Shown here piece after piece: positions 1-60,267 of a DNA stretch of 60,267 bases. The DNA is from Utricularia gibba (Eukaryota > Streptophyta > Magnoliopsida > Lamiales > Lentibulariaceae): contig NEEC01000179.1 of NCBI GenBank assembly GCA_002189035.1, positions 1 through 60,267 of the forward strand. The letters are read 5' to 3'. Positions within the stretch are counted from its first letter, which is position 1. Every line of letters starts with the position of its first letter. Made by a program: the position numbers and the translations under genes. The notes under the pieces were generated by a model. It made no database searches. It saw only the letters and a program-made list of their open reading frames with translations, and was not told the DNA's origin.

Positions 1-3000
1 TTTTTTTAATCGATTTTGCATCCAGTTGACCTCATGAGCCATACAGAATCGGGGTCAAGGACCAAGTTCCCAGCGAGACTGGCCGCCACAAAACGAGAAG
101 CGGTTCCTTGAAAAACCATGTAGGCAGCCCCCGAAAACCGAACGATAATAAATACATCACTTTATTTGCCGGACTACAACTAACTCTCGTGCAAGCCAAA
201 CCTTACCTTTGTCCCGTTCCAGGTGCACCCAAAGACCGCCTGCTCAAGTATAAAGTAAGTTGTTGAAAAAATCATGTGGGGTGCACGTGATATCGCAATT
301 TAAACAAATGCAACATTGTATTCATCGATTTGCATCCTTTTGTCCTCATGAGCCATAAAGAATCGCGGGCCCGGACCAAGTTCCTAGCGAGACTGGCCGC
401 CACAAAACGAGAAGCTGTTCCTTGAAAAACCATGTAGGCAACACCGAAAACCGAACGTTAATAAATACATCACTTTCTTTGCCGGGCTACAACTTACTTT
501 GGGCCAAGGCCTAAGCTGATTTTTCCGGTTCCAAGTGCCCCCAAGACCGCCTCTCATGTATAAAGTAAGTTGTTAAAAAAATCATGTGGGTGCACGTGAC
601 ATCGTAATTTAAACAAATGCATCATTTTTTTTAATCGATTTGCATCCAGTTGACCTCATGAGCCATACAGAATCGGGGTCAAGGACCAAGTTCCCAGCGA
701 GACTGGCCGCCACAAAACGAGAAGCGGTTCCTTGAAAAACCATGTAGGCAGCCCCGAAAACCGAACGATAATAAATACATCACTTTATTTGCCGGACTAC
801 AACTAACTTTCGGCAAGCCAAGCTACTTTTTTCCGTCCAAGTGCCCCCAAGACCGCCTCCTCAAGTATAAAGTAAGTTGTTGAAAAAATCATGTGGGGTG
901 CACGTGATATCGCAATTTAAAAAATGCAACATTGTATTCATCGATTTGCATCCTTTTGTCCTCATGAGCCATAAAGAATCGCGGGCCCGGACCAAGTTCC
1001 TAGCGAGACTGGCCGCCACAAAACGAGAAGCTGTTCCTTGAAAACCATGTAGGCAACACCGAAAACCGAACGTTAATAAATACATCACTTTCTTTGCCGG
1101 GCTACAACTTACTTTGGGCCAAGGCCTAAGCTGATCTTTTTCCGGTTCCAAGTGCCCCCAAGACCGCCTCCTCATGTATAAAGTATGTTGTTAAAAAAAT
1201 CATGTGGGGTGCACGTGACATCGTAATTTAAACAAATGCATCATTTTTTTTAATCGATTTGCATCCAGTTGACCTCATGAGCCATACAGAATCGGGGTCA
1301 AGGACCAAGTTCCCAGCGAGACTGGCCGCCACAAACGAGAAGCGGTTCCTTGAAAAACCATGTAGGCAGCCCCCGAAAACCGAACGATAATAATACATCA
1401 CTTTATTTGCCGGACTACAACTAACTCTCGTGCAAGCCAAACCTTACCTTTGTCCCGTTCCAGGTGCACCCAAAGACCGCCTGCTCAAGTATAAAGTAAG
1501 TTGTTGAAAAAATCATGTGGGGTGCACGTGATATCGCAATTTAAACAAATGCAACATTGTATTCATCGATTTGCATCCTTTTGTCCTCATGAGCCATAAA
1601 GAATCGCGGGCCCGGACCAAGTTCCTAGCGAGACTGGCCGCCACAAAACGAGAAGCTGTTCCTTGAAAAACCATGTAGGCAACACCGAAAACCGAACGTT
1701 AATAAATACATCACTTTCTTTGCCGGGCTACAACTTACTTTGGGCCAAGGCCTAAGCTGACCTTTTTCCGGTTCCAAGTGCCCCCCAAGACCGCCTCCTC
1801 AGTATAAAGTAGTTGTTAAAAAAATCATGTGGGGTGCACGTGACATCGTAATTTAAACAAATGCATCATTTTTTTTAATCGATTTGCATCCAGTTGACCT
1901 CATGAGCCATACAGAATCGGGGTCAAGGACCAAGTTCCCAGCGAGACTGGCCGCCACAAAACGAGAAGCGGTTCCTTGAAAAACCATGTAGGCAGCCCCG
2001 AAAACCGAACGATAATAAATACATCACTTTATTTGCCGGACTACAACTAACTCTCGCAAGCCAAACCTTACCTTTGTCCCGTTCCAGGTGCACCAAGACC
2101 GCCTGCTCAAGTATAAAGTAAGTTGTTGAAAAAATCATGTGGGGTGCACGTGATATCGCAATTTAAACAAATGCAACATTGTATTCATCGATTTGCATCC
2201 TTTTGTCCTCATGAGCCATAAGAATCGCGGGCCCGACCAAGTTCCTAGCGAGACTGGCCGCCACAAAACGAGAAGCTGTTCCTTGAAAAACCATGTAGGC
2301 AACACCGAAAACCGAACGTTAATAAATACATCACTTTCTTTGCCGGGCTACAACTTACTTTGGGCCAAGGCCTAAGCTGATTTTTTCCGGTTCCAAGTGC
2401 CCCCAAGACCGCCTCCTCATGTATAAAGTATGTTGAAAAAATCATGTGGGGTGCACGTGACATCGTAATTTAAACAAATGCATCATTTTTTAATCGATTT
2501 GCATCCAGTTGACCTCATGAGCCATACAGAATCGGGGTCAAGGACCAAGTTCCCAGCGAGACTGGCCGCCACAAAACGAGAAGCGGTTCCTTGAAAAACC
2601 ATGTAGGCAGCCCCCGAAAACCGAACGATAATAAATACATCACTTTATTTGCCGGACTACAACTACTCTCGGGCAAGCCAAACCTGACCTTTGTCCGTTC
2701 CAGTGCACCCAAAGACCGCCTCCTCAAGTATAAAGTAAGTTGTTGAAAAAATCATGTGGGGTGCACGTGATATCGCAATTTAAACAAATGCAACATTGTT
2801 TCATCGATTTGCATCCTTTTGTCCTCATGAGCCATAAGAATCGGGCCGGACCAAGTTCCTAGCGAGACTGGCCGCCACAAAACGAGAAGCTGTTCCTTGA
2901 AAAACCATGTAGGCAACCCGAAAACCGAACGTTAATAAATACATCACTTTCTTTGCCGGGCTACAACTTACTTTGGGCAAGGCCTAAGCTGACGGTTCCA

Positions 3001-3096
3001 AGTGCCAAGACCGCCTTCTCAAGTATAAAGTAAGTTGTTGAAAAAATCATGTGGGGTGCACGTGATATCTAATTTAAACAAATGCATCATTTTTTC
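1..3096 (+). repeat. Clean A-B block, ten monomers
   Basis: Starts at 9 (A), 324 (B), 634 (A), 940 (B), 1253 (A), 1565 (B), 1878 (A), 2187 (B), 2493 (A) and 2803 (B). The first monomer is cut at its T tract by the window edge. Copies differ mainly by small deletions. The block decays at its right end: the B unit at 2803 already lacks several type-specific bases (CATAAGAATCGGGCCGG, GCAACCCG). Confidence 0.9.
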
Positions 3097-3384
3097 ATCG
3101 ATTTGCATCCTTTGACCTCATGAGCCATAAGAATGAAGTTCCAGCGAGACTGGCCGCCACAAAACGAGAAGCTGTTCCTTGAAAAACCATGTAGGCAACC
3201 CGAAAACCGAACGTTAATAAATACATCACTTTCTTTGCCGGGCTACAACTTACTTTGGGCCAAGGCCTAAGCTGACCTTTTTCCGGTTCCAAGTGCCCCC
3301 CAAGACCGCCTCCTCAAGTATAAAGTAAAAAAATCATGTGGGTGCACGTGACATCGTAATTTAAACAAATGCATCATTTTTTTA
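3097..3384 (+). repeat. Hybrid monomer, shortened (288 bp)
   Basis: The head mixes A and B marks (CCTTTGACCTC, CATAAGAATG), followed by a deletion that removes the GGGG..GGACC region. The body is B-like (AGCTGTTCC, GTTAAT, TTTGGGCCAAGG). TTCCAGCG lacks the base that differs between A (TTCCCAGCG) and B (TTCCTAGCG). Confidence 0.82.
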
Positions 3385-6163
3385 ATCGATTTGCATCCAG
3401 TTGACCTCATGAGCCATACAGAATCGGGGTCAAGGACCAAGTTCCCAGCGAGACTGGCCGCCACAAAACGAGAAGCGGTTCCTTGAAAAACCATGTAGGC
3501 AGCCCCCGAAAACCGAACGATAATAAATACATCACTTTATTTGCCGGACTACAACTAACTCTCGGGCAAGCCAACCTTACCTTTGTCCCGTTCCAGTGCA
3601 CCCAAGACCGCCTCTCAAGTATAAAGTAAGTTGTTGAAAAAATCATGTGGGGTGCACGTGATATCGCAATTTAAACAAATGCACATTGTTTCATCGATTT
3701 GCATCCTTTTGTCCTCATGAGCCATAAAGAATCGCGGGCCCGGACCAAGTTCCTAGCGAGACTGGCCGCCACAAAACGAGAAGCTGTTCCTTGAAAAACC
3801 ATGTAGGCAACACCGAAAACCGAACGTTAATAAATACATCACTTTCTTTGCCGGGCTACAACTTACTTTGGGCCAAGGCCTAAGCTGACTTTTTCCGGTT
3901 CCAAGTGCCCCCCAAGACCGCCTCTCATGTATAAAGTAGTTGTTAAAAAAATCATGTGGGGTGCACGTGACATCAATTTAAACAAATGCATCATTTTTTT
4001 TAATCGATTTGCATCCAGTTGACCTCATGAGCCATACAGAATCGGGGTCAAGGGACAAGTTCCCAGCGAGACTGGCCGCCACAAACGAGAAGCGTTCCTT
4101 GAAAAACCATGTAGGCAGCCCCCGAAAACCGAACGATAATAAATACATCACTTTATTTGCCGGACTACAACTAACTCTCTGCAAGCCAAACCTTACCTTT
4201 GTCCCGTTCCAGGTGCACCCAAAGACCGCCTGCTCAAGTATAAAGTAAGTTGTTGAAAAAATCATGTGGGGTGCACGTGATATCGCAATTTAAACAAATG
4301 CAACATTGTATTCATCGATTTGCATCCTTTTGTCCTCATGAGCCATAAAGAATCGCGGGCCCGGACCAAGTTCCTAGCGAGACTGGCCGCCAAAACGAGA
4401 AGCTGTTCCTTGAAAAACCATGTAGGCCGAAAACCGAACGTTAATAAATACATCACTTTCTTTGCCGGGCTACAACTTACTTTGGGCCAAGGCCTAAGCT
4501 GATCTTTTTCCGGTTCCAAGTGCCCCCCAAGACCGCCTCCTCAGTTGTTAAAAAATCATGTGGGTGCACGTGACATATAATTTAAACAAATGCATCATTT
4601 TTTTAATCGATTTGCATCCAGTTGACCTCATGAGCCATACAGAATCGGGGTCAAGGACCAAGTTCCCAGCGAGACTGGCCGCCACAAAACGAGAAGCGGT
4701 TCCTTGAAAAACCATGTAGGCAGCCCCCGAAAACCGAACGATAAAAATACATCACTTTATTTGCCGGACTACAACTAACTCTCGGTGCAAGCCAAACCTT
4801 ACCTTTGTCCCGTTCCAGGTGCACCCAAAGACCGCCTGCTCAAGTATAAAGTAAGTTGTTGAAAAAATCATGTGGGGTGCACGTGATATCGCAATTTAAA
4901 CAAATGCAACATTGTATTCATCGATTTGCATCCTTTTGTCCTCATGAGCCATAAAGAATCGCGGGCCCGGACCAAGTTCCTAGCGAGACTGGCCGCCACA
5001 AAACGAGAAGCTGTTCCTTGAAAAACCATGTAGGCAACACCGAAAACCGAACGTTAATAAATACATCACTTTCTTTGCCGGGCTACAACTTACTTTGGGC
5101 CAAGGCCTAAGCTGATCTTTTTCCGGTTCCAAGTGCCCCCAAGACCGCCTCCTCAGTATAAAGTAGTTGTTAAAAAAATCATGTGGGGTGCACGTGACAT
5201 CGTAATTTAAACAAATGCATCATTTTTTTTAATCGATTTGCATCCAGTTGACCTCATGAGCCATACAGAATCGGGGTCAAGGACCAAGTTCCCAGCGAGA
5301 CTGGCCGCCACAAAACGAGAAGCGGTTCCTTGAAAAACCATGTAGGCAGCCCCCGAAAACCGAACGATAATAAATACATCACTTTATTTGCCGGACTACA
5401 ACTAACTCTCGCAAGCCAAACCTTACCTTTTCCCGTTCCAGGTGCCCCAAAGACCGCCTCTCAAGTATAAAGTAAGTTGTTGAAAAAATCATGTGGGGTG
5501 CACGTGATATCGCAATTTAAACAAATGCAACATTGTATTCATCGATTTGCATCCTTTTGTCCTCATGAGCCATAAAGAATCGCGGGCCCGGACCAAGTTC
5601 CTAGCGAGACTGGCCGCCACAAAACGAGAAGCTGTTCCTTGAAAAACCATGTAGGCAACACGAAAACCGAACGTTAATAAATACATCACTTTCTTTGCCG
5701 GGCTACAACTTACTTTGGGCCAAGGCCTAAGCTGACCTTTTTCCGGTTCCAAGTGCCCCCCAAGACCGCCTCCTCAAGTATAAAGTATGTTGTTAAAAAA
5801 ATCATGTGGGGTGCACGTGACATCGTAATTTAAACAAATGCATCATTTTTTTTAATCGATTTGCATCCAGTTGACCTCATGAGCCATACAGAATCGGGGT
5901 CAAGGACCAAGTTCCCAGCGAGACTGGCCGCCACAAAACGAGAAGCGGTTCCTTGAAAAACCATGTAGGCAGCCCCCGAAAACCGAACGATAATAAATAC
6001 ATCACTTTATTTGCCGGACTACAACTAACTCTCCAAGCCAAACCTTACCTTTGTCCCGTTCCAGTGCCCAAAGACCGCCTGCTCAAGTATAAAGTAAGTT
6101 GTTGAAAAAATCATGTGGGGTGCACGTGATATCGTAATTTAAACAAATGCATCATTTTTTTTC
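3385..6163 (+). repeat. Clean A-B block, nine monomers
   Basis: Starts at 3385 (A), 3693 (B), 4003 (A), 4314 (B), 4606 (A), 4920 (B), 5232 (A), 5541 (B) and 5855 (A). The B unit at 4314 has lost the TATAAAG region near 4543 and part of the GGCAACACCG word near 4428. Otherwise the alternation is regular. Confidence 0.9.
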
Positions 6164-6771
6164 ATCGATTTGCATCCTTTTGTCCTCATGAGCCATAAAG
6201 AATCGGGGGACCAAGTTCCCAGCGAGACTGGCCGCCACAAAACGAGAAGCTGTTCCTTGAAAAACCATGTAGGCACCCCGAAAACCGAACGATAATAAAT
6301 ACATCACTTTCTTTGCCGGCTACAACTAACTTCCAAGCCTAAGCTGACCTTTGTCCCGTTCCAGTGCCCCAAAGACCGCCTCCTCAAGTATAAAGTAAGT
6401 TGTTGAAAAAATCATGTGGGGTGCACGTGATATCGTAATTTAAACAAATGCATCATTGTATTAATCGATTTGCATCCAGTTGACCTCATGAGCCATACAG
6501 AATCGGGGCAAGGACCAAGTTCCAGCGAGACTGGCCGCCACAAAACGAGAAGCTGTTCCTTGAAAAACCATGTAGGCAACCCGAAAACCGAACGTTAATA
6601 AATACATCACTTTCTTTGCCGGGCTACAACTTACTTTGGGCCAAGGCCTAAGCTGACCTTTTTCCGTTCCAGTGCACCCAAAGACCGCCTCTCAAGTATA
6701 AAGTAAGTTGTTGAAAAAATCATGTGGGGTGCACGTGATATCGCAATTTAAACAAATGCAACATTGTATTC
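6164..6771 (+). repeat. Two hybrid monomers
   Basis: The unit at 6164 has a B head (TTCATCG, CCTTTTGTCC), then A-type TTCCCAGCG, B-type AGCTGTTCC, and A-type GATAAT. The unit at 6464 has an A head (TTAATCG, CCAGTTGACC, CATACAG) and a B body (AGCTGTTCC, GTTAAT, TTTGGGCCAAGG). Type-specific bases are missing at TTCCAGCG, GGCAACCCG and GCCGGCTAC. Confidence 0.83.
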
Positions 6772-7703
6772 ATCGATTTGCATCCTTTTGTCCTCATGAG
6801 CCATAAGAATCGCGGGCCCGGACCAAGTTCCTAGCGAGACTGGCCGCCACAAAACGAGAAGCTGTTCCTTGAAAAACCATGTAGGCAACACCGAAAACCG
6901 AACGTTAATAAATACATCACTTTTTTGCCGGGCTACAACTTACTTTGGGCCAAGGCCTAAGCTGACCTTTTTCCGGTTCCAAGTGCCCCAAGACCGCCTC
7001 CTCAGTATAAAGTAGTTGTTAAAAAAATCATGTGGGGTGCACGTGACATCGTAATTTAAACAAATGGATCATTTTTTTTAATCGATTTGCATCCAGTTGA
7101 CCTCATGAGCCATACAGAATCGGGGTCAAGGACCAAGTTCCCAGCGAGACTGGCCGCCACAAACGAGAAGCGGTTCCTTGAAAAACCATGTAGGCAGCCC
7201 CCGAAAACCGAACGATAATAAATACATCACTTTATTTGCCGGACTACAACTAACTCTCGTGCAAGCCAAACCTTACCTTTTTCCGTTCCAGGTGCACCCA
7301 AAGACCGCCTGCTCAAGTATAAAGTAAGTTGTTGAAAAAATCATGTGGGGTGCACGTGATATCGCAATTTAAACAAATGCACATTGTATTCATCGATTTG
7401 CATCCTTTTGTCCTCATGAGCCATAAAGAATCGCGGGCCCGGACCAAGTTCCTAGCGAGACTGGCCGCCACAAAACGAGAAGCTGTTCCTTGAAAAACCA
7501 TGTAGGCAACACCGAAAACCGAACGTTAATAAATACATCACTTTCTTTGCCGGCTACAACTTACTTTGGGCCAAGGCCTAAGCTGATCTTTTTCCGTTCC
7601 AAGTGCACCCAAAGACCGCCTTCTCAAGTATAAAGTAATGTTGTTAAAAAAATCATGTGGGGTGCACGTGACATATAATTTAAACAAATGCATCATTTTT
7701 TTA
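6772..7703 (+). repeat. Clean B-A-B run, three monomers
   Basis: Starts at 6772 (B), 7081 (A) and 7392 (B). The A-to-B junctions carry GATATCGCAA and the B-to-A junction carries GACATCGTAA, as expected. The B unit at 6772 reads CACTTTTTTGCC, missing the base that is A in type A and C in type B. Confidence 0.88.
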
Positions 7704-8002
7704 ATCGATTTGCATCCAGTTGACCTCATGAGCCATACAGAATCGGGGTCAAGGACCAAGTTCCAGCGAGACTGGCCGCCACAAAACGAGAAGCGGTTCC
7801 TTGAAAAACCATGTAGGCACCGAAAACCGAACGTAATAAATACATCACTTTCTTTGCCGGCTACAACTTACTTTGGCCAAGCCTAAGCTGACCTTTTCCG
7901 TTCCAAGTGCCCCCAAGACCGCCTCCTCAATAAAGTAGTTGTTTAAAAAAATCATGTGGGGTGCACGTGACATATAATTTAAACAAATGCATCATTTTTT
8001 TA
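7704..8002 (+). repeat. Hybrid monomer, A head and blended tail
   Basis: The head is type A (CCAGTTGACC, CATACAG, GGGGTCAAGG). From TTCCAGCG onward the type-specific bases are lost or mixed: GGCACCG, GAACGTAAT, GCCGGCTAC, TTTGGCCAAGCC. The junction word is reduced to CTCAATAAAGTAG. It sits between a B unit and an A unit, so the alternation is kept around it only if it is counted as extra. Confidence 0.83.
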
Positions 8003-9237: not shown

Positions 9238-10452
9238 ATCGATTTGCATCCAGTTGTCCTCATGAGCCATAAAGAATCGGGGCCCGGACCAAGTTCCAGC
9301 GAGACTGGCCGCCACAAAACGAGAAGCTGTTCCTTGAAAAACCATGTAGGCAACCCGAAAACCGAACGTTAATAAATACATCACTTTCTTTGCCGGCTAC
9401 AACTACTTTGGGCCAAGCCTAAGCTGATCTTTTTCCGGTTCCAAGTGCACCCAAGACCGCCTTCTCAAGTATAAAGTAAGTTGTTGAAAAAATCATGTGG
9501 GGTGCACGTGATATCGCAATTTAAACAAATGCATCATTGTTTCATCGATTTGCATCCTTTTGTCCTCATGAGCCATAAAGAATCGGGGCCCGGACCAAGT
9601 TCCAGCGAGACTGGCCGCCACAAAACGAGAAGCTGTTCCTTGAAAAACCATGTAGGCAACCCGAAAACCGAACGTTAATAAATACATCACTTTCTTTGCC
9701 GGGCTACAACTTACTTTGGGCCAAGGCCTAAGCTGACCTTTTCCGGTTCCAAGTGCCCCCAAGACCGCCTCCTCAGTATAAAGTAGTTGTTAAAAAAATC
9801 ATGTGGGGTGCACGTGACATCGTAATTTAAACAAATGCATCATTTTTTTTAATCGATTTGCATCCAGTTGACCTCATGAGCCATACAGAATCGGGGTCAA
9901 GGACCAAGTTCCCAGCGAGACTGGCCGCCACAAAACGAGAAGCGGTTCCTTGAAAAACCATGTAGGCACCCCGAAAACCGAACGATAATAAATACATCAC
10001 TTTATTTGCCGGCTACAACTACTCTGGGCAAGCCAAAGCTGACCTTTGTCCCGTTCCAGTGCACCCAAAGACCGCCTCTCAAGTATAAAGTAAGTTGAAA
10101 AATCATGTGGGTGCACGTGACATCGCAATTTAAACAAATGCATCATTTTTTCATCGATTTGCATCCAGTTGACCTCATGAGCCATAAAGAATCGGGGGGA
10201 CCAAGTTCCAGCGAGACTGGCCGCCACAAAACGAGAAGCTGTTCCTTGAAAAACCATGTAGGCACCCCGAAAACCGAACGATAATAAATATCACTTTTTT
10301 GCCGGACTACAACTAACTCTCGGGCAAGCCAAGCTTACCTTTGTCCCGTTCCAGTGCACCCAAAGACCGCCTGCTCAAGTATAAAGTAAGTTGTTGAAAA
10401 AATCATGGGGTGCACGTGATATCGCAATTTAAACAAATGCAACATTGTATTC
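9238..10452 (+). repeat. Hybrid run, four monomers
   Basis: Starts at 9238, 9544, 9852 and 10153. The first two are B-like with A features (CCAGTTGTCC at 9238) and the blended words TTCCAGCG and GCAACCCG. The unit at 9852 has an A head with a blended tail (GGCACCCCG, GCCGGCTAC, CTCTGGGCAAGCC). The unit at 10153 combines CCAGTTGACC with CATAAAG and AGCTGTTCC, then returns to type A. Confidence 0.82.
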
Positions 10453-11374: not shown

Positions 11375-11672
11375 ATCGATTTGCATCCTTGACCTCATGA
11401 GCCATAAAGAATCGGGGGACCAAGTTCCAGCGAGACTGGCCGCCACAAAACGAGAAGCTGTTCCTTGAAAAACCATGTAGGCAACCCGAAAACCGAACGT
11501 TAATAAATACATCACTTTCTTTGCCGGGCTACAACTTACTTTGGGCCAAGCCTAAGCTGACCTTTTTCCGGTTCCAAGTGCCCAAGACCGCCTCTCAGTA
11601 TAAAGTAGTTGTTAAAAATCATGTGGGGTGCACGTGACATCGTAATTTAAACAAATGCATCATTTTTTTTTA
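11375..11672 (+). repeat. Hybrid monomer
   Basis: The head reads CCTTGACCTC, the shared part of A and B. CATAAAG and AGCTGTTCC are type B. TTCCAGCG and GCAACCCG lack the type-specific base. Confidence 0.82.
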
Positions 11673-18529: not shown

Positions 18530-18537
18530 ATTTGCAT
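18530..18537 (-). other. Octamer-like word ATTTGCAT (example)
   Basis: The reverse strand reads ATGCAAAT, the classic octamer bound by POU-domain factors in animals. The same word is present at the start of nearly every monomer of both types (for example 18841-18848 in the next B). Occurrence is seen. Any binding is unproven and would be meaningful only in an animal genome. Confidence 0.3.
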
Positions 18538-18773: not shown

Positions 18774-18796
18774 TGTTGAAAAAATCATGTGGGGTG

Positions 18797-25751: not shown

Positions 25752-26400
25752 GCAACCGAAAGAACCCGAAAAGTATACAAGTCACTTGTCTTTGCCGGGC
25801 TACAACTTACTTTGGGCCAAGGCCTAAGCTGATCTTTTTCCGGTTCCAATATCACACCAAAGCAACGATATATTCATGTATTTTGCAGTTTTTGTGTGGC
25901 CTCATGCACGCATAAAGAATATCGCAATGCAACAAATTGTATTCATCGATTTGCATCCTTTTGTCCTCATGAGCCATAAAGAATCGCGGGCCCGGACCAA
26001 GTTCCGAGACTGGCCGCCACAAAACGAGAAGCTGTTCCTTGAAAAACCATGTAGGCAACACCGAAAACCGAACGTTAATAAATACATCACTTTCTTTGCC
26101 GGGCTACAACTTACTTTGGGCCAAGGCCTAACGAGAATCTGTTTTCCCATCCAGTTGCCTCCGACGAAAACCTGTGTATAATGTATGCCGTAGGCAAAAA
26201 ACATGGGGGTGCACGTGACTTTGGGATTAAAGGCATCATTTTCTTTTTCGATTACTTTGGCATAAGCCAAGTTGACCTCAGAGGTTCCAAATCATGTGGG
26301 TCCAGTATGTATTTAAAAAACGAAATCGATTTGCATCAAAAGTTGACCTCATGAGCCATACAGAATCGGGGACCGAAGAACCGAACGGTTCCCATAATAA
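25752..26400 (+). repeat. Shuffled and diverged satellite zone
   Basis: Normal words are interrupted by foreign bases (GAAAGAACCCGAAAAGTATAC at 25759 on, CACTTGTCTTTGCC). Near 25872 a diverged second head follows (ATATATTCATGTATTTTGC, TTTTTGTGTGGCCTCATG). A nearly normal B head starts at 25945. From about 26131 the tail breaks up again (CATCCAGTTGCCTCCGACG, GTATAATGTATGCCGTAGGC, TTTTTCGATTACTTTGGC). An A head returns at 26325 but has lost its middle third. I see no identifiable insertion sequence, only satellite-like pieces. Confidence 0.78.
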
Positions 26401-27471
26401 ATACATCACTTTATTTGCCGGACTACAACTAACTCTTGCAAGCCAAACCTTACCTTTGTCCGTTCCAGTGCACCCAAAGACCGCCTGCTCAAGTATAAAG
26501 TAAGTTGTTGAAAAAATCATGTGGGTGCACGTGATATCGCAATTTAAACAAATGCAACATTGTATTCATCGATTTGCATCCTTTTGTCCTCATGAGCCAT
26601 AAAGAATCGGGGACCAAGTTCCTAGCGACTGGCCGCCACAAAACGAGAAGCTGTTCCTTGAAAAACCATGTAGGCAACACCGAAAACCGAACGTTAATAA
26701 ATACATCACTTTCTTTGCCGGGCTACAACTTACTTTGGCCAAGGCCTAAGCTGATCTTTTTCCGGTTCCAAGTGCCCAAGACCGCCTCTCAAGTATAAAG
26801 TAATTGTTGAAAAAATCATGTGGGGTGCACGTGATATCGCAATTTAAACAAATGCAACATTGCATCGATTTGCATCCTTTTGTCCTCATGAGCCATAAAG
26901 AATCGGGGGGACCAAGTTCCTAGCGAGACTGGCCGCCACAAAACGAGAAGCTTTCCTTGAAAAACCATGTAGGCAACCCGAAAACCGAACGTTAATAAAT
27001 ACATCACTTTCTTTGCCGGGCTACAACTTACTTTGGGCAAGCCTAAGCTGACTTTTTCCGGTTCCAAGTGCACCCAAAGACCGCCTCTCAAGTATAAAGT
27101 AAGTTGTTGAAAAAATCATGTGGGTGCACGTGATATCGCAATTTAAACAAATGCAACATTGTATTCATCGATTTGCATCCTTTTGTCCTCATGAGCCATA
27201 AAGAATCGGGCCCGGACCAAGTTCCTAGCGAGACTGGCCGCCACAAAACGAGAAGCTGTTCCTTGAAAAACCATGTAGGCAACACCGAAAACCGAACGTT
27301 AATAAATACATCACTTTCTTTGCCGGGCTACAACTTACTTTGGCCAAGGCCTAAGCTGATCTTTTTCCGGTTCCAAGTGCCCCAAAGACCGCCTTCTCAA
27401 GTATAAAGTAGTTGAAAAAATCATGTGGGTGCACGTGACATATAATTTAAACAAATGCATCATTTTTTTTA
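26401..27471 (+). repeat. End of a truncated A unit and three B-like monomers
   Basis: The A unit begun at 26325 is only about 243 bp long. It is followed by starts at 26568, 26864 and 27167, all B-like, so three B-type units run in a row. Blended words include TAGCGACTGG, AGCTTTCC and GCAACCCG. Confidence 0.82.
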
Positions 27472-28261
27472 ATCGATTTGCATCCAGTTGACCTCATGAG
27501 CCATACAGAATCGGGTCAAGGACCAAGTTCCCAGCGAGACTGGCCGCCACAAAACGAGAAGCGGTTCCTTGAAAAACCATGTAGGCACCCCGAAAACCGA
27601 ACGATAATAAATACATCACTTTATTTGCCGGACTACAACTAACTCTGCAAGCCAAACCTTACCTTTGTCCCGTTCCAGTGCACCCAAGACCGCCTGCTCA
27701 AGTATAAAGTAAGTTGTTGAAAAAATCATGTGGGTGCACGTGATATCGCAATTTAAACAAATGCAACATTGTATTCATCGATTTGCATCCTTTTGTCCTC
27801 ATGAGCCATAAAGAATCGCGGGCCCGACCAAGTTCCTAGCGAGACTGGCCGCCACAAAACGAGAAGCTGTTCCTTGAAAAACCATGTAGGCAACACGAAA
27901 ACCGAACGTTAATAAATACATCACTTTCTTTGCCGGCTACAACTTACTTTGGGCCAAGGCCTAAGCTGATCTTTTTCCGGTTCCAGTGCCCCCCAAGACC
28001 GCCTCCTCATGTATAAAGTATGTTGTTAAAAAATCATGTGGGTGCACGTGACATCGTAATTTAAACAAATGCATCATTTTTTTTAATCGATTTGCATCCA
28101 GTTGACCTCATGAGCCATACAGAATCGGGGTCAAGGACCAAGTTCCCAGCGAGACTGGCCGCCACAAAACGAGAAGCGGTTCCTTGAAAAACCATGTAGG
28201 CAGCCCCGAAAACCGAACGATAATAAATACATCACTTTATTTGCCGGACTACAACTAACTC
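27472..28261 (+). repeat. A-B-A run, last unit truncated
   Basis: Starts at 27472 (A), 27777 (B) and 28086 (A). The last A unit stops after CTCTCGCCCC and loses most of its final 80 bp. Confidence 0.87.
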
Positions 28262-28440
28262 TCGCCCCAAGTGCACCCAAAGACCGCCTCCTCATGTATA
28301 TAAGCACATTGTATTCATCGATTTGCATCCTTTTGTCCTCATGAGCCATAAAGAATCGCGGGCCTGGGGACTGCAAGTTCGTAATTTAAAGACTGGCCAA
28401 TGCATCAAAACAATCGCTTTGCATTCCTTGTTGTCCTCAT
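28262..28440 (+). repeat. Truncated junction and mini-monomer of about 96 bp
   Basis: After CTCATGTATATAAGCAC a B head starts at 28317 but breaks after GCGGGCCTGGGGACTGC. It runs into a mixture of the monomer end and body (GTAATTTAAAGACTGGCC) and reaches the next, altered start word at 28413 (ATCGCTTTGCATTCC). The spacing from one start to the next is only 96 bp. Confidence 0.78.
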
Positions 28441-29565: not shown

Positions 29566-29780
29566 GTAAAAAAAATCATGTGGGTGCGTGAATAATTTAA
29601 ACAAATGCATCATAATCGATTTGCATCCATACCTCATGAGCCATGAATCACCAAGTGCGAGACTGGCCGCCACAAAACGAGAAGCTTCCTTGAAAAACCA
29701 TGTAGGCATAATAAATACATCACTTACTACAACTGGCCAAGTTCCATGCACCCAAGACCGCCTCTCAAGTATAAAGTAAG
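29566..29780 (+). repeat. Core-only monomer (about 230 bp start to start)
   Basis: The start word is at 29615 and the next is at 29845. Almost every stretch in which A and B differ is missing, while shared stretches are kept: CATAATCG, CATCCATACCTCATGAGCC, CATGAATC, CACCAAGTGCGAGACTGG, AGAAGCTTCC, ATGTAGGCATAATAAATAC, ATCACTTACTACAACTGGCC. It reads like the intersection of A and B and is the extreme case of the blending seen in other hybrids. Confidence 0.82.
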
Positions 29781-30799
29781 TTGTTGAAAAAATCATGTGG
29801 GGTGCACGTGATATCGCAATTTAAACAAATGCAACATTGTATTCATCGATTTGCATCCTTTTGTCCTCATGAGCCATAAAGAATCCCCGGACCAAGTTCC
29901 TAGCGAGACTGGCCGCCACAAAACGAGAAGCTGTTCCTTGAAAAACCATGTAGGCAACACCGAAAACCGAACGTTAATAAATACATCACTTTCTTTGCCG
30001 GCTACAACTTACTTTGGGCCAAGGCCTAAGCTGATCTTTTTCCGGTTCCAAGTGCCCCAAGACCGCCTCTCATGTATAAAGTATGTTGTTAAAAAAATCA
30101 TGTGGGTGCACGTGACATCGTAATTTAAACAAATGCATCATTTTTTTTAATCGATTTGCATCCAGTTGACCTCATGAGCCATACAGAATCGGGGTCAAGG
30201 ACCAAGTTCCCAGCGAGACTGGCCGCCACAAACGAGAAGCGGTTCCTTGAAAACCATGTAGGCAGCCCCCGAAAACCGAACGATAATAAATACATCACTT
30301 TATTTGCCGGACTACAACTAACTCTCGGTGCAAGCCAAACCTTACCTTTGTCCCGTTCCAGGTGCACCCAAAGACCGCCTGCTCAAGTATAAAGTAAGTT
30401 GTTGAAAAAATCATGTGGGGTGCACGTGATATCGCAATTTAAACAAATGCAACATTGTATTCATCGATTTGCATCCTTTTGTCCTCATGAGCCATAAAGA
30501 ATCGCGGGCCCGGACCAAGTTCCTAGCGAGACTGGCCGCCACAAAACGAGAAGCTGTTCCTTGAAAAACCATGTAGGCAACACCGAAAACCGAACGTTAA
30601 TAAATACATCACTTTCTTTGCCGGGCTACAACTTACTTTGGCCAAGCCTAAGCTGATCTTTTTCCGGTTCCAAGTGCCCCCAAAGACCGCCTTCTCAAGT
30701 ATAAAGTAAGTTGTTGAAAAAATCATGTGGGTGCACGTGATATCGCAATTTAAACAAATGCAACATTTATTCATCGATTTGCATCCTTTGTCCTCATGA
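29781..30799 (+). repeat. B-A-B run entering a damaged unit
   Basis: Starts at 29845 (B), 30150 (A), 30463 (B) and 30773 (B-like). The last one is normal only up to CATAAAGAATAAAG near 30812. Confidence 0.86.
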
Positions 30800-31450
30800 G
30801 CCATAAAGAATAAAGTTGTTGTTCCTTGAAAAACCATGTAGGCAACACCGAAAAGCGAACCCGCCACAACGTCATCACTTTCTTTGTGGGGTGCATCTTT
30901 TTCCGGTTCCAAGTGCACCCAAGACCGCCTTCTCAAGACACAACATTGACGTAATTTAAACAACGTGATATCGCAATTTAAACAAATGCAACATTGTATT
31001 CATCGATTTGCATCCTTTTTGATTAAAGAATGCGGGCCCGGACCAAGTTCCAGTTGACCTGTAGGCATTAATAAATACATCACTTTCTTTGAGCCATACA
31101 TCTTTTTCCGGTTCCAAGTGCGGGGTCAAGGACCAAGCAAAAACATGTCATCCATCCTTTTGCGAGCCACTTCCTAGCGCCGCCACAAAACGAGAAGCTG
31201 GAAAAACCATGTAGGCAACTTAATAAATACATCACTTTCTTTGCCGGGCTACAACTTACTTTGGGCCAAGGCCTAAGCTGATCTTTTTCCGGTTCCAAGT
31301 GCCCCCCGCCTTCTCAGTAAGTTGTTAAAAAATCATGTGGGGTGCACGTGACCGTTTAAACAAATGCATCATCGAGATGAAACCGAATGCGATAATGCAT
31401 CAAATCGATTTGCATCCACCTCATTATTTGCCGGCCGCCACAAAACGAGA
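30800..31450 (+). repeat. Most heavily shuffled satellite zone
   Basis: Pieces of 10-40 bp from the same satellite appear out of order: GTTGTTGTTCCTTG, AGCGAACCCGCCACAACG, TTTGTGGGGTGCATC, CACAACATTGACGTAATTT, GTTGACCTGTAGGC, TTTGAGCCATACATC, AAGTGCGGGGTCAAGG, CATCCATCCTTTTGCGAGCC. Start words survive at 31002 and 31404, giving spacings of 229 and 402 bp. A fairly normal B body lies near 31200-31300. No foreign element or target-site pattern is visible. Confidence 0.8.
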
Positions 31451-32477
31451 AGCGGTACCAAGGCTAACATTCGGACAAGCCCAAACCTTACCTTTTCCGT
31501 TCCAGGTGCACCCAAAGACCGCCTCTCAAGTATAAAGTAAGTTGTTGAAAAAATCATGTGGGGTGCACGTGATATCGCAATTTAAACAAATGCAATTGTA
31601 TATTCATCGATTTGCATCCTTCTTGTGTTCCTCATGAGCAACATTAAAGACATCGCGGGCCCGGACACCCAAGTTCCTAGCGAGACTGGCCGCCACAAAA
31701 CGAGAAGCTGTTCCTTGAAAAACCATGTAGGCAACACCGAAAACCGAACGTTAATAAATACATCACTTTCTTTGCCGGGCTACAACTTACTTTGGGCCAA
31801 GGCCTAAGCTGACCTTTTTCCGGTTCCAAGTGCCCCCAAGACCGCCTCCTCATGTATAAAGTATGTTGTTGAAAAAATCATGTGGGGTGCACGTGACATC
31901 GTAATTTAAACAAATGCATCATTTTTTTTAATCGATTTGCATCCAGTTGACCTCATGAGCCATACAGAATCGGGGTCAAGGACCAAGTTCCCAGCGAGAC
32001 TGGCCGCCACAAAACGAGAAGCGGTTCCTTGAAAAACCATGTAGGCAGCCCCCGAAAACCGAACGATAATAAATACATCACTTTATTTGCCGGACTACAA
32101 CTAACTCTCGTGCAAGCCAAACCTTACCTTTGTCCCGTTCCAGGTGCACCCAAAGACCGCCTGCTCAAGTATAAAGTAAGTTGTTGAAAAAATCATGTGG
32201 GGTGCACGTGATATCGCAATTTAAACAAATGCAACATTGTATTCATCGATTTGCATCCTTTTGTCCTCATGAGCCATAAAGAATCGCGGGCCCGGACCAA
32301 GTTCCTAGCGAGACTGGCCGCCACAAAACGAGAAGCTGTTCCTTGAAAAACCATGTAGGCAACACCGAAAACCGAACGTTAATAAATACATCACTTTCTT
32401 TGCCGGGCTACAACTTACTTTGGGCCAAGGCCTAAGCTGATCTTTTTCCGGTTCCAAGTGCACCCAAGACCGCCTTC
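31451..32477 (+). repeat. Recovery into B-A-B
   Basis: Starts at 31606 (B), 31931 (A) and 32245 (B). The head at 31606 has small interior insertions (TTCTTGTGTTCC, GAGCAACATTAAAGACATCG, GGACACCCAAG), so the shuffling fades out over about 100 bp. The other two units are clean. Confidence 0.85.
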
Positions 32478-51420: not shown

Positions 51421-53545
51421 ATCGATTTGCATCCTTTTGTCCTCATGAGCCATAAAGAATCGGGGCCCGGACCAAGTTCCAGCGAGACTGGCCGCCACAA
51501 AACGAGAAGCTGTTCCTTGAAAAACCATGTAGGCAACCCGAAAACCGAACGTTAATAAATACATCACTTTCTTTGCCGGGCTACAACTTACTTTGGGCCA
51601 AGGCCTAAGCTGACTTTTCCGGTTCCAAGTGCCCCAAGACCGCCTCCTCAAGTATAAAGTATGTTGTTAAAAATCATGTGGGGTGCACGTGACATCGTAA
51701 TTTAAACAAATGCATCATTTTTTTTAATCGATTTGCATCCAGTTGACCTCATGAGCCATACAGAATCGGGGTCAAGGACCAAGTTCCCAGCGAGACTGGC
51801 CGCCACAAAACGAGAAGCTTCCTTGAAAAACCATGTAGGCAGCCCGAACGATAATAAATACATCACTTTTTGCCGGACTACAACTAACTTCGGCAAGCCA
51901 AGCTGACCTTTTTCCGTTCCAGGTGCACCCAAAGACCGCCTCTCAAGTATAAAGTAAGTTGTTGAAAAAATCATGTGGGGTGCACGTGATATCGCAATTT
52001 AAACAAATGCAACATTGTATTCATCGATTTGCATCCTTTTGTCCTCATGAGCCATAAAGAATCGCGGGCCGGACCAAGTTCCTAGCGAGACTGGCCGCCA
52101 CAAAACGAGAAGCTGTTCCTTGAAAAACCATGTAGGCAACACCGAAAACCGAACGTTAATAAATACATCACTTTCTTTGCCGGGCTACAACTTACTTTGG
52201 GCCAAGGCCTAAGCTGACCTTTTTCCGGTTCCAAGTGCCCCAAGACCGCCTCCTCATGTATAAAGTATGTTGTTAAAAAATCATGTGGGGTGCACGTGAC
52301 ATCGTAATTTAAACAAATGCATCATTTTTTTTAATCGATTTGCATCCAGTTGACCTCATGAGCCATACAGAATCGGGGTCAAGGACCAAGTTCCAGCGAG
52401 ACTGGCCGCCACAAAACGAGAAGCGGTTCCTTGAAAAACCATGTAGGCAGCCCCGAAAACCGAACGATAATAAATACATCACTTTATTTGCCGGACTACA
52501 ACTAACTCTCGGCAAGCCAAACCTTACCTTTGTCCCGTTCCAGGTGCACCCAAAGACCGCTCTCAAGTATAAAGTAAGTTGTTGAAAAAATCATGTGGGG
52601 TGCACGTGATATCGCAATTTAAACAATGCAACATTGTATTCATCGATTTGCATCCTTTTGTCCTCATGAGCCATAAAGAATCGGGGCCCGGACCAAGTTC
52701 CTAGCGAGACTGGCCGCCACAAAACGAGAAGCTGTTCCTTGAAAAACCATGTAGGCAACACCGAAAACCGAACGTTAATAAATACATCACTTTCTTTGCC
52801 GGGCTACAACTTACTTTGGGCCAAGGCCTAAGCTGATCTTTTTCCGGTTCCAAGTGCACCCAAAGACCGCCTTCTCAAGTATAAAGTAAGTTGTTGAAAA
52901 AATCATGTGGGGTGCACGTGACATATAATTTAAACAAATGCATCATTTTTTTTAATCGATTTGCATCCAGTTGACCTCATGAGCCATACAGAATCGGGGC
53001 AAGGACCAAGTTCCCAGCGAGACTGGCCGCCACAAAACGAGAAGCGGTTCCTTGAAAAACCATGTAGGCAGCCCCGAAAACCGAACGTAATAAATACATC
53101 ACTTTTTTGCCGGACTACAACTTACTTTGGCAAGGCCTAAGCTGACTTTTCCGGTTCCAAGTGCCCCCAAGACCGCCTCCTCAAGTATAAAGTAAGTTGT
53201 TAAAAAATCATGTGGGGTGCACGTGATATCGTAATTTAAACAAATGCATCATTTTTTTAATCGATTTGCATCCAGTTGACCTCATGAGCCATAAAGAATC
53301 GGGGCCGGACAAGTTCCCAGCGAGACTGGCCGCCACGAGAAGCTGTTCCTTGAAAAACCATGTAGGCAGCCCCCGAAAACCGAACGTAATAAACATCACT
53401 TTATTTGCCGGGCTACAACTAAAGCCAAACACCTTTTCCGTTCCAGGTGCACCAAAGACCGCCTCTCAAGTATAAAGTAAGTTGTTGAAAAAATCATGTG
53501 GGGTGCACGTGATATCGCAATTTAAACAAATGCAACATTGTATTC
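51421..53545 (+). repeat. Mixed run: hybrids around one B-A-B
   Basis: Starts at 51421 (B-like), 51727 (A head with AGAAGCTTCC and GCAGCCCGAACG, a deletion of the GAAAACC word), 52023 (B), 52334 (A), 52642 (B), 52955 and 53260 (hybrids). At 53260 the CACAAAACG word is reduced to CACGAG and TAAACATC replaces TAAATACATC. Confidence 0.83.
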
Positions 53546-55078
53546 ATCGATTTGCATCCTTTTGTCCTCATGAGCCATAAGAATCGCGGGCCCGGACCAA
53601 GTTCCTAGCGAGACTGGCCGCCACAAAACGAGAAGCTGTTCCTTGAAAAACCATGTAGGCAACACCGAAAACCGAACGTTAATAAATACATCACTTTCTT
53701 TGCCGGCTACAACTTACTTTGGGCCAAGGCCTAAGCTGATCTTTTTCCGGTTCAAGTGCCCCCAAGACCGCCTCCTCAAGTATAAAGTAAGTTGTTGAAA
53801 AAATCATGTGGGGTGCACGTGACATCGTAATTTAAACAAATGCATCATTTTTTTTAATCGATTTGCATCCAGTTGACCTCATGAGCCATACAGAATCGGG
53901 GTCAAGGACCAAGTTCCCAGCGAGACTGGCCGCCACAAAACGAGAAGCGGTTCCTTGAAAAACCATGTAGGCAGCCCCCGAAAACCGAACGATAATAAAT
54001 ACATCACTTTATTTGCCGGACTACAACTAACTCTCGGGCAAGCCAAACCTTACCTTTGTCCCGTTCCAGGTGCACCCAAAGACCGCCTCTCAAGTATAAA
54101 GTAAGTTGAAAAAATCATGTGGGGTGCACGTGATATCGCAATTTAAACAAATGCAACATTGTATTCATCGATTTGCATCCTTTTCCTCATGAGCCATAAA
54201 GAATCGGGCCCGGACCAAGTTCCTAGCGAGACTGGCCGCCACAAAACGAGAAGCTGTTCCTTGAAAAACCATGTAGGCAACACCGAAAACCGAACGTTAA
54301 TAAATACATCACTTTCTTTGCCGGGCTACAACTTACTTTGGGCCAAGGCCTAAGCTGACTTTTTCCGGTTCCAAGTGCCCCAAACCGCCTCTCAAGTATA
54401 AAGTAAGTTGTTAAAAAAATCATGTGGGTGCACGTGACATCATAATTTAAACAAATGCATCATTTTTTTTAATCGATTTGCATCCAGTTGACCTCATGAG
54501 CCATACAGAATCGGGGTCAAGGACCAAGTTCCAGCGAGACTGGCCGCCACAAAACGAGAAGCGGTTCCTTGAAAAACCATGTAGGCAGCCCCCGAAAACC
54601 GAACGTAATAAATACATCACTTTATTTGCCGGACTACAACTTACTTTGGCCAAGGCCTAAGCTGACTTTTTCCGGTTCCAAGTGCCCCCAAGACCGCCTC
54701 CTCAAGTATAAAGTAAGTTGTTAAAAAAATCATGTGGGGTGCACGTGATCGTAATTTAAACAAATGCATCATTTTTTTTAATCGATTTGCATCCTTGACC
54801 TCATGAGCCATAAAGAATCGGGGCAAGGACCAAGTTCCCAGCGAGACTGGCCGCCACAAAACGAGAAGCGGTTCCTTGAAAAACCATGTAGGCAGCCGAA
54901 AACCGAACGTAATAAATACATCACTTTATTTGCCGGACTACAACTAACTGCAAGCCTAAGCTGACCTTTTCCGTTCCAGTGCACCCAAAGACCGCCTCTC
55001 AAGTATAAAGTAAGTTGTTGAAAAAATCATGTGGGGTGCACGTGATATCGCAATTTAAACAAATGCAACATTGTATTC
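53546..55078 (+). repeat. B-A-B run followed by two A-headed hybrids
   Basis: Starts at 53546 (B), 53857 (A), 54167 (B), 54472 (A head with B tail) and 54781 (CCTTGACC head, A body, GCAGCCG). The last two form another A-A step. Confidence 0.84.
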
Positions 55079-56917
55079 ATCGATTTGCATCCTTTTGTCC
55101 TCATGAGCCATAAAGAATCGCGGGCCCGGACCAAGTTCCTAGCGAGACTGGCCGCCACAAAACGAGAAGCTGTTCCTTGAAAAACCATGTAGGCAACACC
55201 GAAACCGAACGTTAATAAATACATCACTTTCTTTGCCGGGCTACAACTTACTTTGGCCAAGGCCTAAGCTGATCTTTTTCCGGTTCCAGTGCCCCAAGAC
55301 CGCCTCTCAAGTATAAAGTATGTTGTTAAAAAAATCATGTGGGGTGCACGTGACATCGTAATTTAAACAAATGCATCATTTTTTTTAATCGATTTGCATC
55401 CAGTTGACCTCATGAGCCATACAGAATCGGGGTCAAGGACCAAGTTCCCAGCGAGACTGGCCGCCACAAAACGAGAAGCGGTTCCTTGAAAAACCATGTA
55501 GGCAGCCCCGAAAACCGAACGATAATAAATACATCACTTTATTTGCCGGACTACAACTTACTTCGGGCAAGCCAAGCTGACCTTTGTCCGTTCCAGTGCA
55601 CCCAAAGACCGCCTCTCAAGTATAAAGTAAGTTGTTGAAAAAATCATGTGGGGTGCACGTGATATCGCAATTTAAACAAATGCAACATTGTATTCATCGA
55701 TTTGCATCCTTTTGCCTCATGAGCCATAAGAATCGCGGGCCCGGACCAAGTTCCTAGCGAGACTGGCCGCCACAAAACGAGAAGCTGTTCCTTGAAAAAC
55801 CATGTAGGCAACACCGAAAACCGAACGTTAATAAATACATCACTTTCTTTGCCGGGCTACAACTTACTTTGGGCCAAGCCTAAGCTGATTTTTCCGGTTC
55901 CAAGTGCACCCAAAGACCGCCTCTCAAGTATAAAGTAAGTTGTTGAAAAAATCATGTGGGTGCACGTGATATCAATTTAAACAAATGCATCATTTTTTTC
56001 AATCGATTTGCATCCTTTTGACCTCATGAGCCATAAAGAATCGGGGCCCGGACCAAGTTCCAGCGAGACTGGCCGCCACAAAACGAGAAGCGTTCCTTGA
56101 AAAACCATGTAGGCAACCCGAAAACCGAACGTTAATAAATACATCACTTTCTTTGCCGGGCTACAACTTACTTTGGGCCAAGGCCTAAGCTGACTTTTTC
56201 CGGTTCCAGTGCACCCAAAGACCGCCTTCTCAAGTATAAAGTAAGTTGTTGAAAAAATCATGTGGGTGCACGTGATATCGCAATTTAAACAAATGCATCA
56301 TTGTATTCATCGATTTGCATCCTTTTGTCCTCATGAGCCATAAAGAATCGGGGCCCGGACCAAGTTCCTAGCGAGACTGGCCGCCACAAAACGAGAAGCG
56401 TTCCTTGAAAAACCATGTAGGCAACACCGAAAACCGAACGTTAATAAATACATCACTTTCTTTGCCGGGCTACAACTTACTTTGGGCCAAGGCCTAAGCT
56501 GATCTTTTTCCGGTTCCAAGTGCACCCAAAGACCGCCTCTCAAGTATAAAGTAAGTTGTTGAAAAAATCATGTGGGGTGCACGTGATATCGAATTTAAAC
56601 AAATGCAACATTGTATTCATCGATTTGCATCCTTTTGACCTCATGAGCCATAAAGAATCGGGGGACCAAGTTCCAGCGAGACTGGCCGCCACAAAACGAG
56701 AAGCTGTTCCTTGAAAAACCATGTAGGCAACCGAAAACCGAACGTTAATAAATACATCACTTTCTTTGCCGGGCTACAACTTACTTTGGGCCAAGGCCTA
56801 AGCTTTTTCCGGTTCCAAGTGCCCCAAAGACCGCCTCTCAAGTATAAAGTAAGTTGTTGAAAAAATCATGTGGGGTGCACGTGATATCGCAATTTAAACA
56901 AATGCAACATTGTATTC
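55079..56917 (+). repeat. B-A-B run followed by three hybrid or B-like monomers
   Basis: Starts at 55079 (B), 55388 (A), 55696 (B), 56002 (hybrid), 56309 (B-like) and 56619 (hybrid). The hybrids show CCTTTTGACC, TTCCAGCG, AGAAGCGTTCC and GCAACCCG. Confidence 0.84.
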
Positions 56918-59900
56918 ATCGATTTGCATCCTTTTGTCCTCATGAGCCATAAAGAATCGCGGGCCCGGACCAAGTTCCTAGCGAGACTGGCCGCCACAAA
57001 ACGAGAAGCTGTTCCTTGAAAAACCATGTAGGCAACACCGAAAACCGAACGTTAATAAATACATCACTTTCTTTGCCGGCTACAACTTACTTTGGGCCAA
57101 GGCCTAAGCTGACCTTTTTCCGGTTCCAAGTGCCCCCAAAGACCGCCTCCTCATGTATAAAGTAAGTTGTTAAAAAAATCATGTGGGGTGCACGTGACAT
57201 CGTAATTTAAACAAATGCATCATTTTTTTTAATCGATTTGCATCCAGTTGACCTCATGAGCCATACAGAATCGGGGTCAAGGACCAAGTTCCCAGCGAGA
57301 CTGGCCGCCACAAAACGAGAAGCGGTTCCTTGAAAAACCATGTAGGCAGCCCCGAAAACCGAACGATAATAAATACATCACTTTATTTGCCGGCTACAAC
57401 TAACTCTCGGTGCAAGCCAAACCTTACCTTTGTCCCGTTCCAGGTGCACCCAAAGACCGCCTGCTCAAGTATAAAGTAAGTTGTTGAAAAAATCATGTGG
57501 GGTGCACGTGATATCGCAATTTAAACAAATGCAACATTGTATTCATCGATTTGCATCCTTTTGTCCTCATGAGCCATAAAGAATCGCGGGCCCGGACCAA
57601 GTTCCTAGCGAGACTGGCCGCCACAAAACGAGAAGCTGTTCCTTGAAAAACCATGTAGGCAAACCGAAAACCGAACGTTAATAAATACATCACTTTCTTT
57701 GCCGGGCTACAACTTACTTTGGGCCAAGGCCTAAGCTGACCTTTTTCCGGTTCCAAGTGCCCCCCAAGACCGCCTCCTCATGTATAAAGTATGTTGTTAA
57801 AAATCATGTGGGGTGCACGTGACATCGTAATTTAAACAAATGCATCATTTTTTTTAATCGATTTGCATCCAGTTGACCTCATGAGCCATACAGAATCGGG
57901 GTCAAGGACCAAGTTCCCAGCGAGACTGGCCGCCACAAAACGAGAAGCGGTTCCTTGAAAAACCATGTAGGCAGCCCCCGAAAACCGAACGTAATAAATA
58001 CATCACTTTTTGCCGGACTACAACTAACTCTCGGGCAAGCCAACCTTACTTTGTCCCGTTCCAGGTGCACCCAAAGACCGCCTCTCAAGTATAAAGTAAG
58101 TTGTTGAAAAAATCATGTGGGGTGCACGTGATATCGCAATTTAAACAAATGCAACATTGTATTCATCGATTTGCATCCTTTTGTCCTCATGAGCCATAAA
58201 GAATCGCGGGCCCGGACCAAGTTCCTAGCGAGACTGGCCGCCACAAAACGAGAAGCTGTTCCTTGAAAAACCATGTAGGCAACACCGAAAACCGAACGTT
58301 AATAAATACATCACTTTCTTTGCCGGGCTACAACTTACTTTGGCCAAGGCCTAAGCTGACCTTTTTCCGGTTCCAAGTGCCCCCCAAGACCGCCTCCTCA
58401 AGTATAAAGTAAGTTGTTAAAAAAAATCATGTGGGGTGCACGTGACATCGTAATTTAAACAAATGCATCATTTTTTTTAATCGATTTGCATCCAGTTGAC
58501 CTCATGAGCCATACATCGGGGTCAAGGACCAAGTTCCCAGCGAGACTGGCCGCCACAAAACGAGAAGCGGTTCCTTGAAAAACCATGTAGGCAGCCCCGA
58601 AAACCGAACGATAATAAATACATCACTTTATTTGCCGGACTACAACTAACTCTCGGTGCAAGCCAACCTTACCTTTGTCCCGTTCCAGTGCACCCAAAGA
58701 CCGCCTCTCAAGTATAAAGTAAGTTGTTGAAAAAATCATGTGGGGTGCACGTGATATCGCAATTTAAACAAATGCAACATTGTATTCATCGATTTGCATC
58801 CTTTTGTCCTCATGAGCCATAAAGAATCGGGCCCGGACCAAGTTCCTAGCGAGACTGGCCGCCACAAAACGAGAAGCTGTTCCTTGAAAAACCATGTAGG
58901 CAACACCGAAAACCGAACGTTAATAAATACATCACTTTCTTTGCCGGGCTACAACTTACTTTGGGCCAAGGCCTAAGCTGACCTTTTTCCGGTTCCAAGT
59001 GCCCCCCAAGACCGCCTCCTCATGTATAAAGTAAGTTGTTAAAAAATCATGTGGGGTGCACGTGACATCGTAATTTAAACAAATGCATCATTTTTTAATC
59101 GATTTGCATCCAGTTGACCTCATGAGCCATACAGAATCGGGGTCAAGGACCAAGTTCCCAGCGAGACTGGCCGCCACAAAACGAGAAGCGGTTCCTTGAA
59201 AAACCATGTAGGCAGCCCCGAAAACCGAACGATAATAAATACATCACTTTATTTGCCGGACTACAACTAACTCTCGGGCAAGCCAAACCTTACCTTTGTC
59301 CCGTTCCAGGTGCACCCAAAGACCGCCTCTCAAGTATAAAGTAAGTTGTTGAAAAAATCATGTGGGGTGCACGTGATATCGCAATTTAAACAAATGCAAC
59401 ATTGTATTCATCGATTTGCATCCTTTTGTCCTCATGAGCCATAAAGAATCGCGGGCCCGGACCAAGTTCCTAGCGAGACTGGCCGCCACAAAACGAGAAG
59501 CTGTTCCTTGAAAAACCATGTAGGCAACACCGAAAACCGAACGTTAATAAATACATCACTTTCTTTGCCGGGCTACAACTTACTTTGGGCCAAGGCCTAA
59601 GCTGACCTTTTTCCGGTTCCAAGTGCCCCCAAGACCGCCTCCTCAAGTATAAAGTAAGTTGTTGAAAAAATCATGTGGGGTGCACGTGACATCGTAATTT
59701 AAACAAATGCATCATTTTTTTTTAATCGATTTGCATCCAGTTGACCTCATGAGCCATACAGAATCGGGGTCAAGGACCAAGTTCCCAGCGAGACTGGCCG
59801 CCACAAAACGAGAAGCGGTTCCTTGAAAAACCATGTAGGCAGCCCCGAAAACCGAACGATAATAAATACATCACTTTATTTGCCGGACTACAACTAACTC

Positions 59901-60267
59901 TCCAAGCCAAACCTTACCTTTGTCCCGTTCCAGGTGCACCCAAGACCGCCTGCTCAAGTATAAAGTAAGTTGTTGAAAAAATCATGTGGGGTGCACGTGA
60001 TATCGCAATTTAAACAAATGCAACATTGTATTCATCGATTTGCATCCTTTTGTCCTCATGAGCCATAAAGAATCGCGGGCCCGGACCAAGTTCCTAGCGA
60101 GACTGGCCGCCACAAAACGAGAAGCTGTTCCTTGAAAAACCATGTAGGCAACACCGAAAAACCGAACGTTAATAAATACATCACTTTCTTTGCCGGGCTA
60201 CAACTTACTTTGGGCCAAGGCCTAAGCTGATCTTTTTCCGGTTCCAAGTGCCCCCCAAGACCGCCTC
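56918..60267 (+). repeat. Clean A-B block running off the right edge, eleven monomers
   Basis: Starts at 56918 (B), 57232 (A), 57545 (B), 57857 (A), 58165 (B), 58480 (A), 58788 (B), 59098 (A), 59410 (B), 59725 (A) and 60034 (B, cut at CGCCTC by the window end). B-to-B spacings are 620-627 bp. It is among the most regular blocks and gives a good estimate of the higher-order period. Confidence 0.92.

Follow-up and report, generated by a model that had tools for sequence, protein, structure and literature searches.

Does a satellite monomer that carries alleles of two types, and that lacks bases at sites where those types differ, record an event in the DNA or an event in the assembly? The question is raised by the stretch analysed here, referred to as the window, which is contig C24 in its entirety (60,267 bp, in a genome of 100.09 Mb and 516 contigs) and which is occupied from end to end (1–60267, forward strand) by a satellite array with 198 anchors. 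Its monomers are of about 310 bp and belong to two types, A and B, which often alternate to give dimers of about 620 bp. Across 315 alignment columns, 34 substitutions and 4 one-base gaps separate the types. A 25-base core of the satellite, GACTGGCCGCCACAAAACGAGAAGC, has 5,728 copies in the genome (3064+2664). Telomere repeats (TTTAGGG) are also present in the genome, which is therefore probably that of a plant, and, among the matches listed, CCCTAAA repeats lie at the start (first kilobase) of contigs C1, C2 and C3. A first-pass annotation of the window had claimed that hybrid monomers lose exactly the bases that distinguish A from B, and had attributed this to a consensus made from merged reads of different copies.

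The window was cut at a conserved anchor, the 198 anchors giving 197 intervals, of which 185 (270–330 bp) were aligned and 12 of unusual length were left out; either allele, A or B, was accepted at each column. Monomers were termed mosaic when they held at least two A alleles and at least two B alleles among 18 columns of the monomer head, and by this rule 26 of the 185 are mosaic. On 20 core columns, 27 of the 185 monomers are hybrid, with a mean length of 303 bp as compared with 308–309 bp for A and B. Over columns 257–315 of the monomer alignment, many B-headed monomers carry an A tail. The successive B heads may thus belong to tandem B units with a different cutting point, and not to hybrids.

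Disputed bases, those at which A and B differ, were lost more often than shared ones. At disputed cells with an allele in a homopolymer the base was lost in 638 of 5550 cases, as compared with 95 of 7585 for shared runs of two to three bases (34 columns; p = 2e-148), although the first of these figures is inflated by 12 of the 34 substitution columns that also vary inside a type. At the other disputed cells, 24 of 740 were lost, as compared with 135 of 20350 shared single bases (34 columns; p = 2e-9). The 18 head columns, which are steadier and were used besides, gave 236 losses in 3330 cells against 230 in 27935 for shared runs of one to three bases (p = 3e-105). At least one loss was found in 23 of the 26 mosaics but in only 79 of the 159 non-mosaic monomers (p = 2e-4). 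The loss amounted to 80 of 468 head sites in the mosaics (17%; 18 columns, 26 mosaics) and to 192 of 918 disputed sites, or 21%, in the 27 hybrids over 34 columns. Nearly all the other head sites of the mosaics, however, kept A or B, and three of the 26 mosaics had no loss at all. The claim is thus borne out as an enrichment of losses at disputed bases, but "exactly" does not describe monomers in which most sites keep an allele.

Six sets of motifs had been claimed at particular places, and all were found there or at most 2 bases away. In the window, the A, B and shortened forms numbered 70, 101 and 19 for TTCC[C/T]AGCG, 64, 113 and 10 for AGC[G/T]GTTCC, 64, 112 and 12 for ACG[A/T]TAAT, 67, 110 and 16 for CATA[C/A]AG, and 69, 114 and 6 for TTT[A/C]TTTGCC; GG[A/G]CTAC gave 67 and 112 for the A and B forms, and the count of 124 for GGCTAC includes the B form. 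Genome-wide, the TTT[A/C]TTTGCC site has A in 2581 copies and C in 2174, and the base is lost in 58 (1.2%). A deletion of one shared base, picked as a control, has 18 genome copies (only the deleted form was counted). Four of the eight places cited as hybrid (7830, 53087, 53104 and 9394) do lie in mosaic monomers, but the monomers at 56058, 56090 and 35784 have just one A allele each, and that at 2216 is of type B. Since four of the eight fall outside mosaics, loss also affects monomers other than hybrids, and the heading under which the first-pass annotation had placed them was too strong.

The losses were clustered. Three or more successive sites were lost in 15 monomers, whereas 1000 shuffles gave a mean of 1.03 such monomers and never more than 8 (22 columns). 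The flanking sites were discordant in type at 50 of 228 lost sites but at 247 of 3439 other sites (p = 1e-11), and losses rose with the number of A/B switches in a monomer (rho = 0.51), from a mean of 0.8 at no switch to 2.5–3.3 at one to five. Moreover, both members of a pair of adjacent monomers were mosaic in 8 cases as against 3.4 expected, a number reached in 21 of 2000 shuffles. The A/B phase was broken in 7 of 16 hybrid runs and in 31 of 135 adjacent non-hybrid pairs, a difference that is not significant (p = 0.12).

Several monomers, all given on the forward strand, illustrate the pattern. With lost head sites written as dashes, the mosaic at 6164–6463 reads BBBB---ABAB-A-BBBA, that at 10153–10452 reads AAABB---BA-AAA-BAA, and that at 53260–53545, which is 286 bp long, reads AAABB-BAB-AB--A--- and lacks 7 of its 18 head sites. 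A 230-bp monomer at 29615–29844 is close to the part that A and B share: 24 of the 34 substitution sites and 58 of 277 shared bases are lost, no base is at odds with both types, and many of the lost shared bases adjoin disputed ones. Other short monomers occur at 25945–26567 (204, 176 and 243 bp) and at 28086–28412 (231 and 96 bp). The idea that short monomers represent the part common to A and B fitted only the monomer at 29615 among four alignments, the other three (25945, 26325 and 28086) reading as jumps inside a monomer. Finally, the stretch at 30771–31560 is scrambled, and consists of monomer fragments of 8–87 bases, many of them out of order.

An excess of loss at disputed columns was found in all 13 other slices, at ratios of 1.3–8.4 as compared with 8.6 in the window; in slice L002 the excess was not significant (9/450 as compared with 59/3775, p = 0.43). 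Among the slices fetched, loss was heaviest in L008 (contig C10, first 10 kb), in which 143 of 468 head sites were lost as compared with 209 of 3926 shared runs. The excess also persists, at ratios of 2.5–5.3, in arrays that do not alternate between A and B, namely C8 and the A-rich stretch C10:21-41 kb. These two were tried as a homogeneous-array control, but they hold several types and give no clean control; hence, they neither support nor exclude merging. Slices L009–L011 (C8:1-30000) contain a higher-order array of another kind, built of about five mixed monomer types that recur.

Three other origins of the losses were weighed. Short-read polishing, during which reads from other copies would have been mapped onto the contig and would have rewritten its alleles, is a very improbable one. 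During polishing, reads may be placed on repeat copies to which they do not belong, according to the available part of one account (PMC7545148), and alleles would be mixed; we would expect polishing, however, by reasoning and not from simulation, to swap alleles and not to delete them, and it leaves the scrambled stretch unexplained.

Slightly less probable still is plain contraction of a homopolymer of one parent, independent of the A/B difference. Such contraction would explain the form of five of the six cited motifs, each of which can also be read as a one-base homopolymer contraction of one parent; the sole exception is TTTTTTGCC, a loss that is included in the mosaic at 10153–10452 and that neither A nor B would yield by shortening of a homopolymer. 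In the non-mosaic context (22 columns), a disputed base in a homopolymer was lost in 119 of 1750 cells and a single base facing a homopolymer allele in 41 of 1119, and the sole shared GGGG run was shortened in 26 of 185 monomers. Against this, shared runs of two to three bases were shortened at just the low rate given above (95/7585). In addition, disputed bases outside homopolymers were lost more often than shared single bases (135/20350), both when they faced a homopolymer allele (41/1119, p = 3e-16) and when both alleles were single (19/638 in the same non-mosaic context and 22 columns, p = 2e-7). Loss in a homopolymer setting was, moreover, higher in the mosaic context, at 77 of 461 cells, with 5 of 102 lost outside homopolymers (22 columns). 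The losses outside homopolymers rule out homopolymer error as the sole cause. Loss is roughly doubled in homopolymers, probably by such error, and disputed status matters in each class.

That the shortened hybrids are real DNA, whether a third satellite type or the product of recombination or repair that deleted mismatched bases in an A/B heteroduplex, is as improbable as homopolymer contraction. Losses at A/B switches are what excision of heteroduplex mismatches might yield, and the satellite does have recurring mixed types. In slice L006 (C325:1-10000) there is a third monomer type, which combines private bases with A-like and B-like ones; one loss-free string is common to 20 of 30 monomers, and the 45-mer of this type has 307 copies genome-wide. 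The hybrid label that our scheme gave to all L006 monomers was therefore rejected in favor of a real third type; the loss scored at column 164 in this slice is partly an effect of the alignment, because the type reads CCGAGCTAC. Higher-order satellite arrays may mix monomer types, and those in C325 and C8 resemble the window in having monomers that combine A-like and B-like alleles; their types recur, however, whereas the 26 mosaics of the window do not, and most of the latter are shortened.

Satellite variants recur once they have been amplified. Among 397 monomers (the window and L001–L008), no identical 18-site head string was found for any of the 26 mosaics, whereas one was found elsewhere for 78 of the 83 loss-free monomers in the same set. 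The 44-base piece at 6287–6330, within the mosaic at 6164–6463, has a single copy in the genome and is the sole hybrid string of its kind searched genome-wide. When spans of five sites (about 50 bases) were searched in the window and the fetched sequence, those of 20 mosaics with at least two losses had a median of 1 copy, 13 being unique and 7 not; by the same search, 24 pure A monomers had a median of 115 copies, with 2 unique, and 54 pure B monomers a median of 177, with none unique. Single-site losses do recur, since the string of 36 of the 44 one-loss monomers is also present in some other monomer, as would be expected if the same site were repeatedly lost. A fresh real recombinant that was never amplified would likewise be unique. 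A deleted ancestral form is implausible because the 34 substitutions between A and B are accompanied by only 4 one-base gaps, and real DNA of this kind does not predict scrambled fragments. Least probable of all is that A/B heteroduplex mismatches were removed, and not repaired to one allele, during satellite recombination, in which case every exchange would shorten a monomer at its disputed sites.

There remains the merging of reads into a consensus. We simulated 30 noisy reads drawn from A and B, with rates of our own choosing (9% insertion, 4.5% deletion and 1.2% substitution), and passed them to four callers that we wrote ourselves, no actual program being run, with 14 replicates per point for the votes and the path method and 24 for the likelihood caller. 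With an alignment restricted to insertions and deletions followed by a column vote, 0.4% of disputed sites were lost from unmixed reads and 13–29% when 20–50% of the reads were of the other type; an indel-only path method gave 0% and 5–21%, respectively. At 50:50 the indel-only methods lost 21–24% of disputed sites, as compared with 0–0.4% unmixed. A vote that allowed mismatches lost 0.4% unmixed and about 4–5% mixed, and a pair-HMM likelihood caller lost 0% at 0–20% mixing and 1–4% at 40–50%. Shared bases were lost, in the votes and the path method, in 2–13 of 3878 cells unmixed and in 14–41 of 3878 mixed. The loss observed in hybrids (17–21%) thus falls with the indel-only methods, and the mismatch-allowing vote (about 4–5% when mixed) and the likelihood caller (0–4%) give too little to be its source. 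Accordingly, the proposal that a consensus caller drops a disputed base holds for indel-only callers (up to 21–29%) but not for the other two. Beside the pattern and its statistics, we therefore have a procedure able to give the overall rate.

Site by site, the indel-only simulations showed no such agreement: over 22 columns, their loss rates gave Spearman rho values between -0.29 and 0.26 with those of the window, the hybrids and L008, none of them significant. The likelihood caller ranked sites better, with rho = 0.49 (p = 0.02) in the window and 0.47 (p = 0.03) in L008, and with 0.17, not significant, in the hybrids. Site-by-site rates do not identify the program responsible. In alignment by the O(ND) method, a substitution appears as one insertion and one deletion. 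Canu, as described in the part of its account available to us (PMC5411767), corrects reads by Myers' O(ND) alignment and a highest-weight path, and takes its contig consensus from a modified pbdagcon. An indel-only step of this sort can cause losses such as those seen here, which does not in itself show that it was used in this assembly.

We favor the reading that the shortened hybrids are consensus artefacts, produced when reads of different copies were merged during correction or consensus, because the losses fall at disputed sites, are clustered, lie at switches and occur in mosaics that do not recur. Judged from the assembled sequence, this is very probably correct, if short of proven. The merging proposed in the first-pass annotation accounts for the clustered losses, their concentration at disputed sites and at switches, the lack of recurrence of hybrids and the scrambled stretches, and the simulation gives the overall rate; neither the phase comparison nor the site-by-site rates confirmed it. 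We infer that a procedure of the indel-only kind was used here on a mixture of reads from different copies. During correction of a read or contig, noisy long reads would have been pooled although they came from both A and B copies, or from a single array with a shift of one monomer; an aligner that splits a substitution into an insertion and a deletion could then leave neither base with a majority. The caller would write nothing at such a site, or would choose A here and B at the following site, and the outcome would be mosaic monomers without some of the disputed bases.

Errors of this kind are already known. Collapsed heterozygosity, as set out in the accessible text of PMC7545148, yields a mosaic consensus that possibly matches no allele and may introduce frameshifts. 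Collapsed haplotypes or repeat copies of that sort resemble the window in their allele switches, in sequence that matches no real allele and in spurious small indels; here, however, the mosaics lie between monomer types of a tandem satellite, and the losses are concentrated on disputed bases. Similarly, CLR contigs before polishing (PMC8081667, as far as its available part goes) carry short indels that come from the contig consensus, but those of the window, which is not known to derive from CLR reads, are concentrated at sites that distinguish copies. In the literature that we searched, by titles and the openings of abstracts, we found no description of loss at disputed bases as a signature, which is weak evidence of absence.

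Most likely, then, the shortened hybrids represent a known kind of error and not a real biological feature. The signature, comprising losses at copy-distinguishing sites and at switch points in patterns that do not recur, is detectable from an assembly alone, and it could flag satellite contigs that are unreliable. For the satellite itself, gene conversion or the course of satellite evolution should not be inferred from mosaic or shortened monomers in such contigs without the reads.
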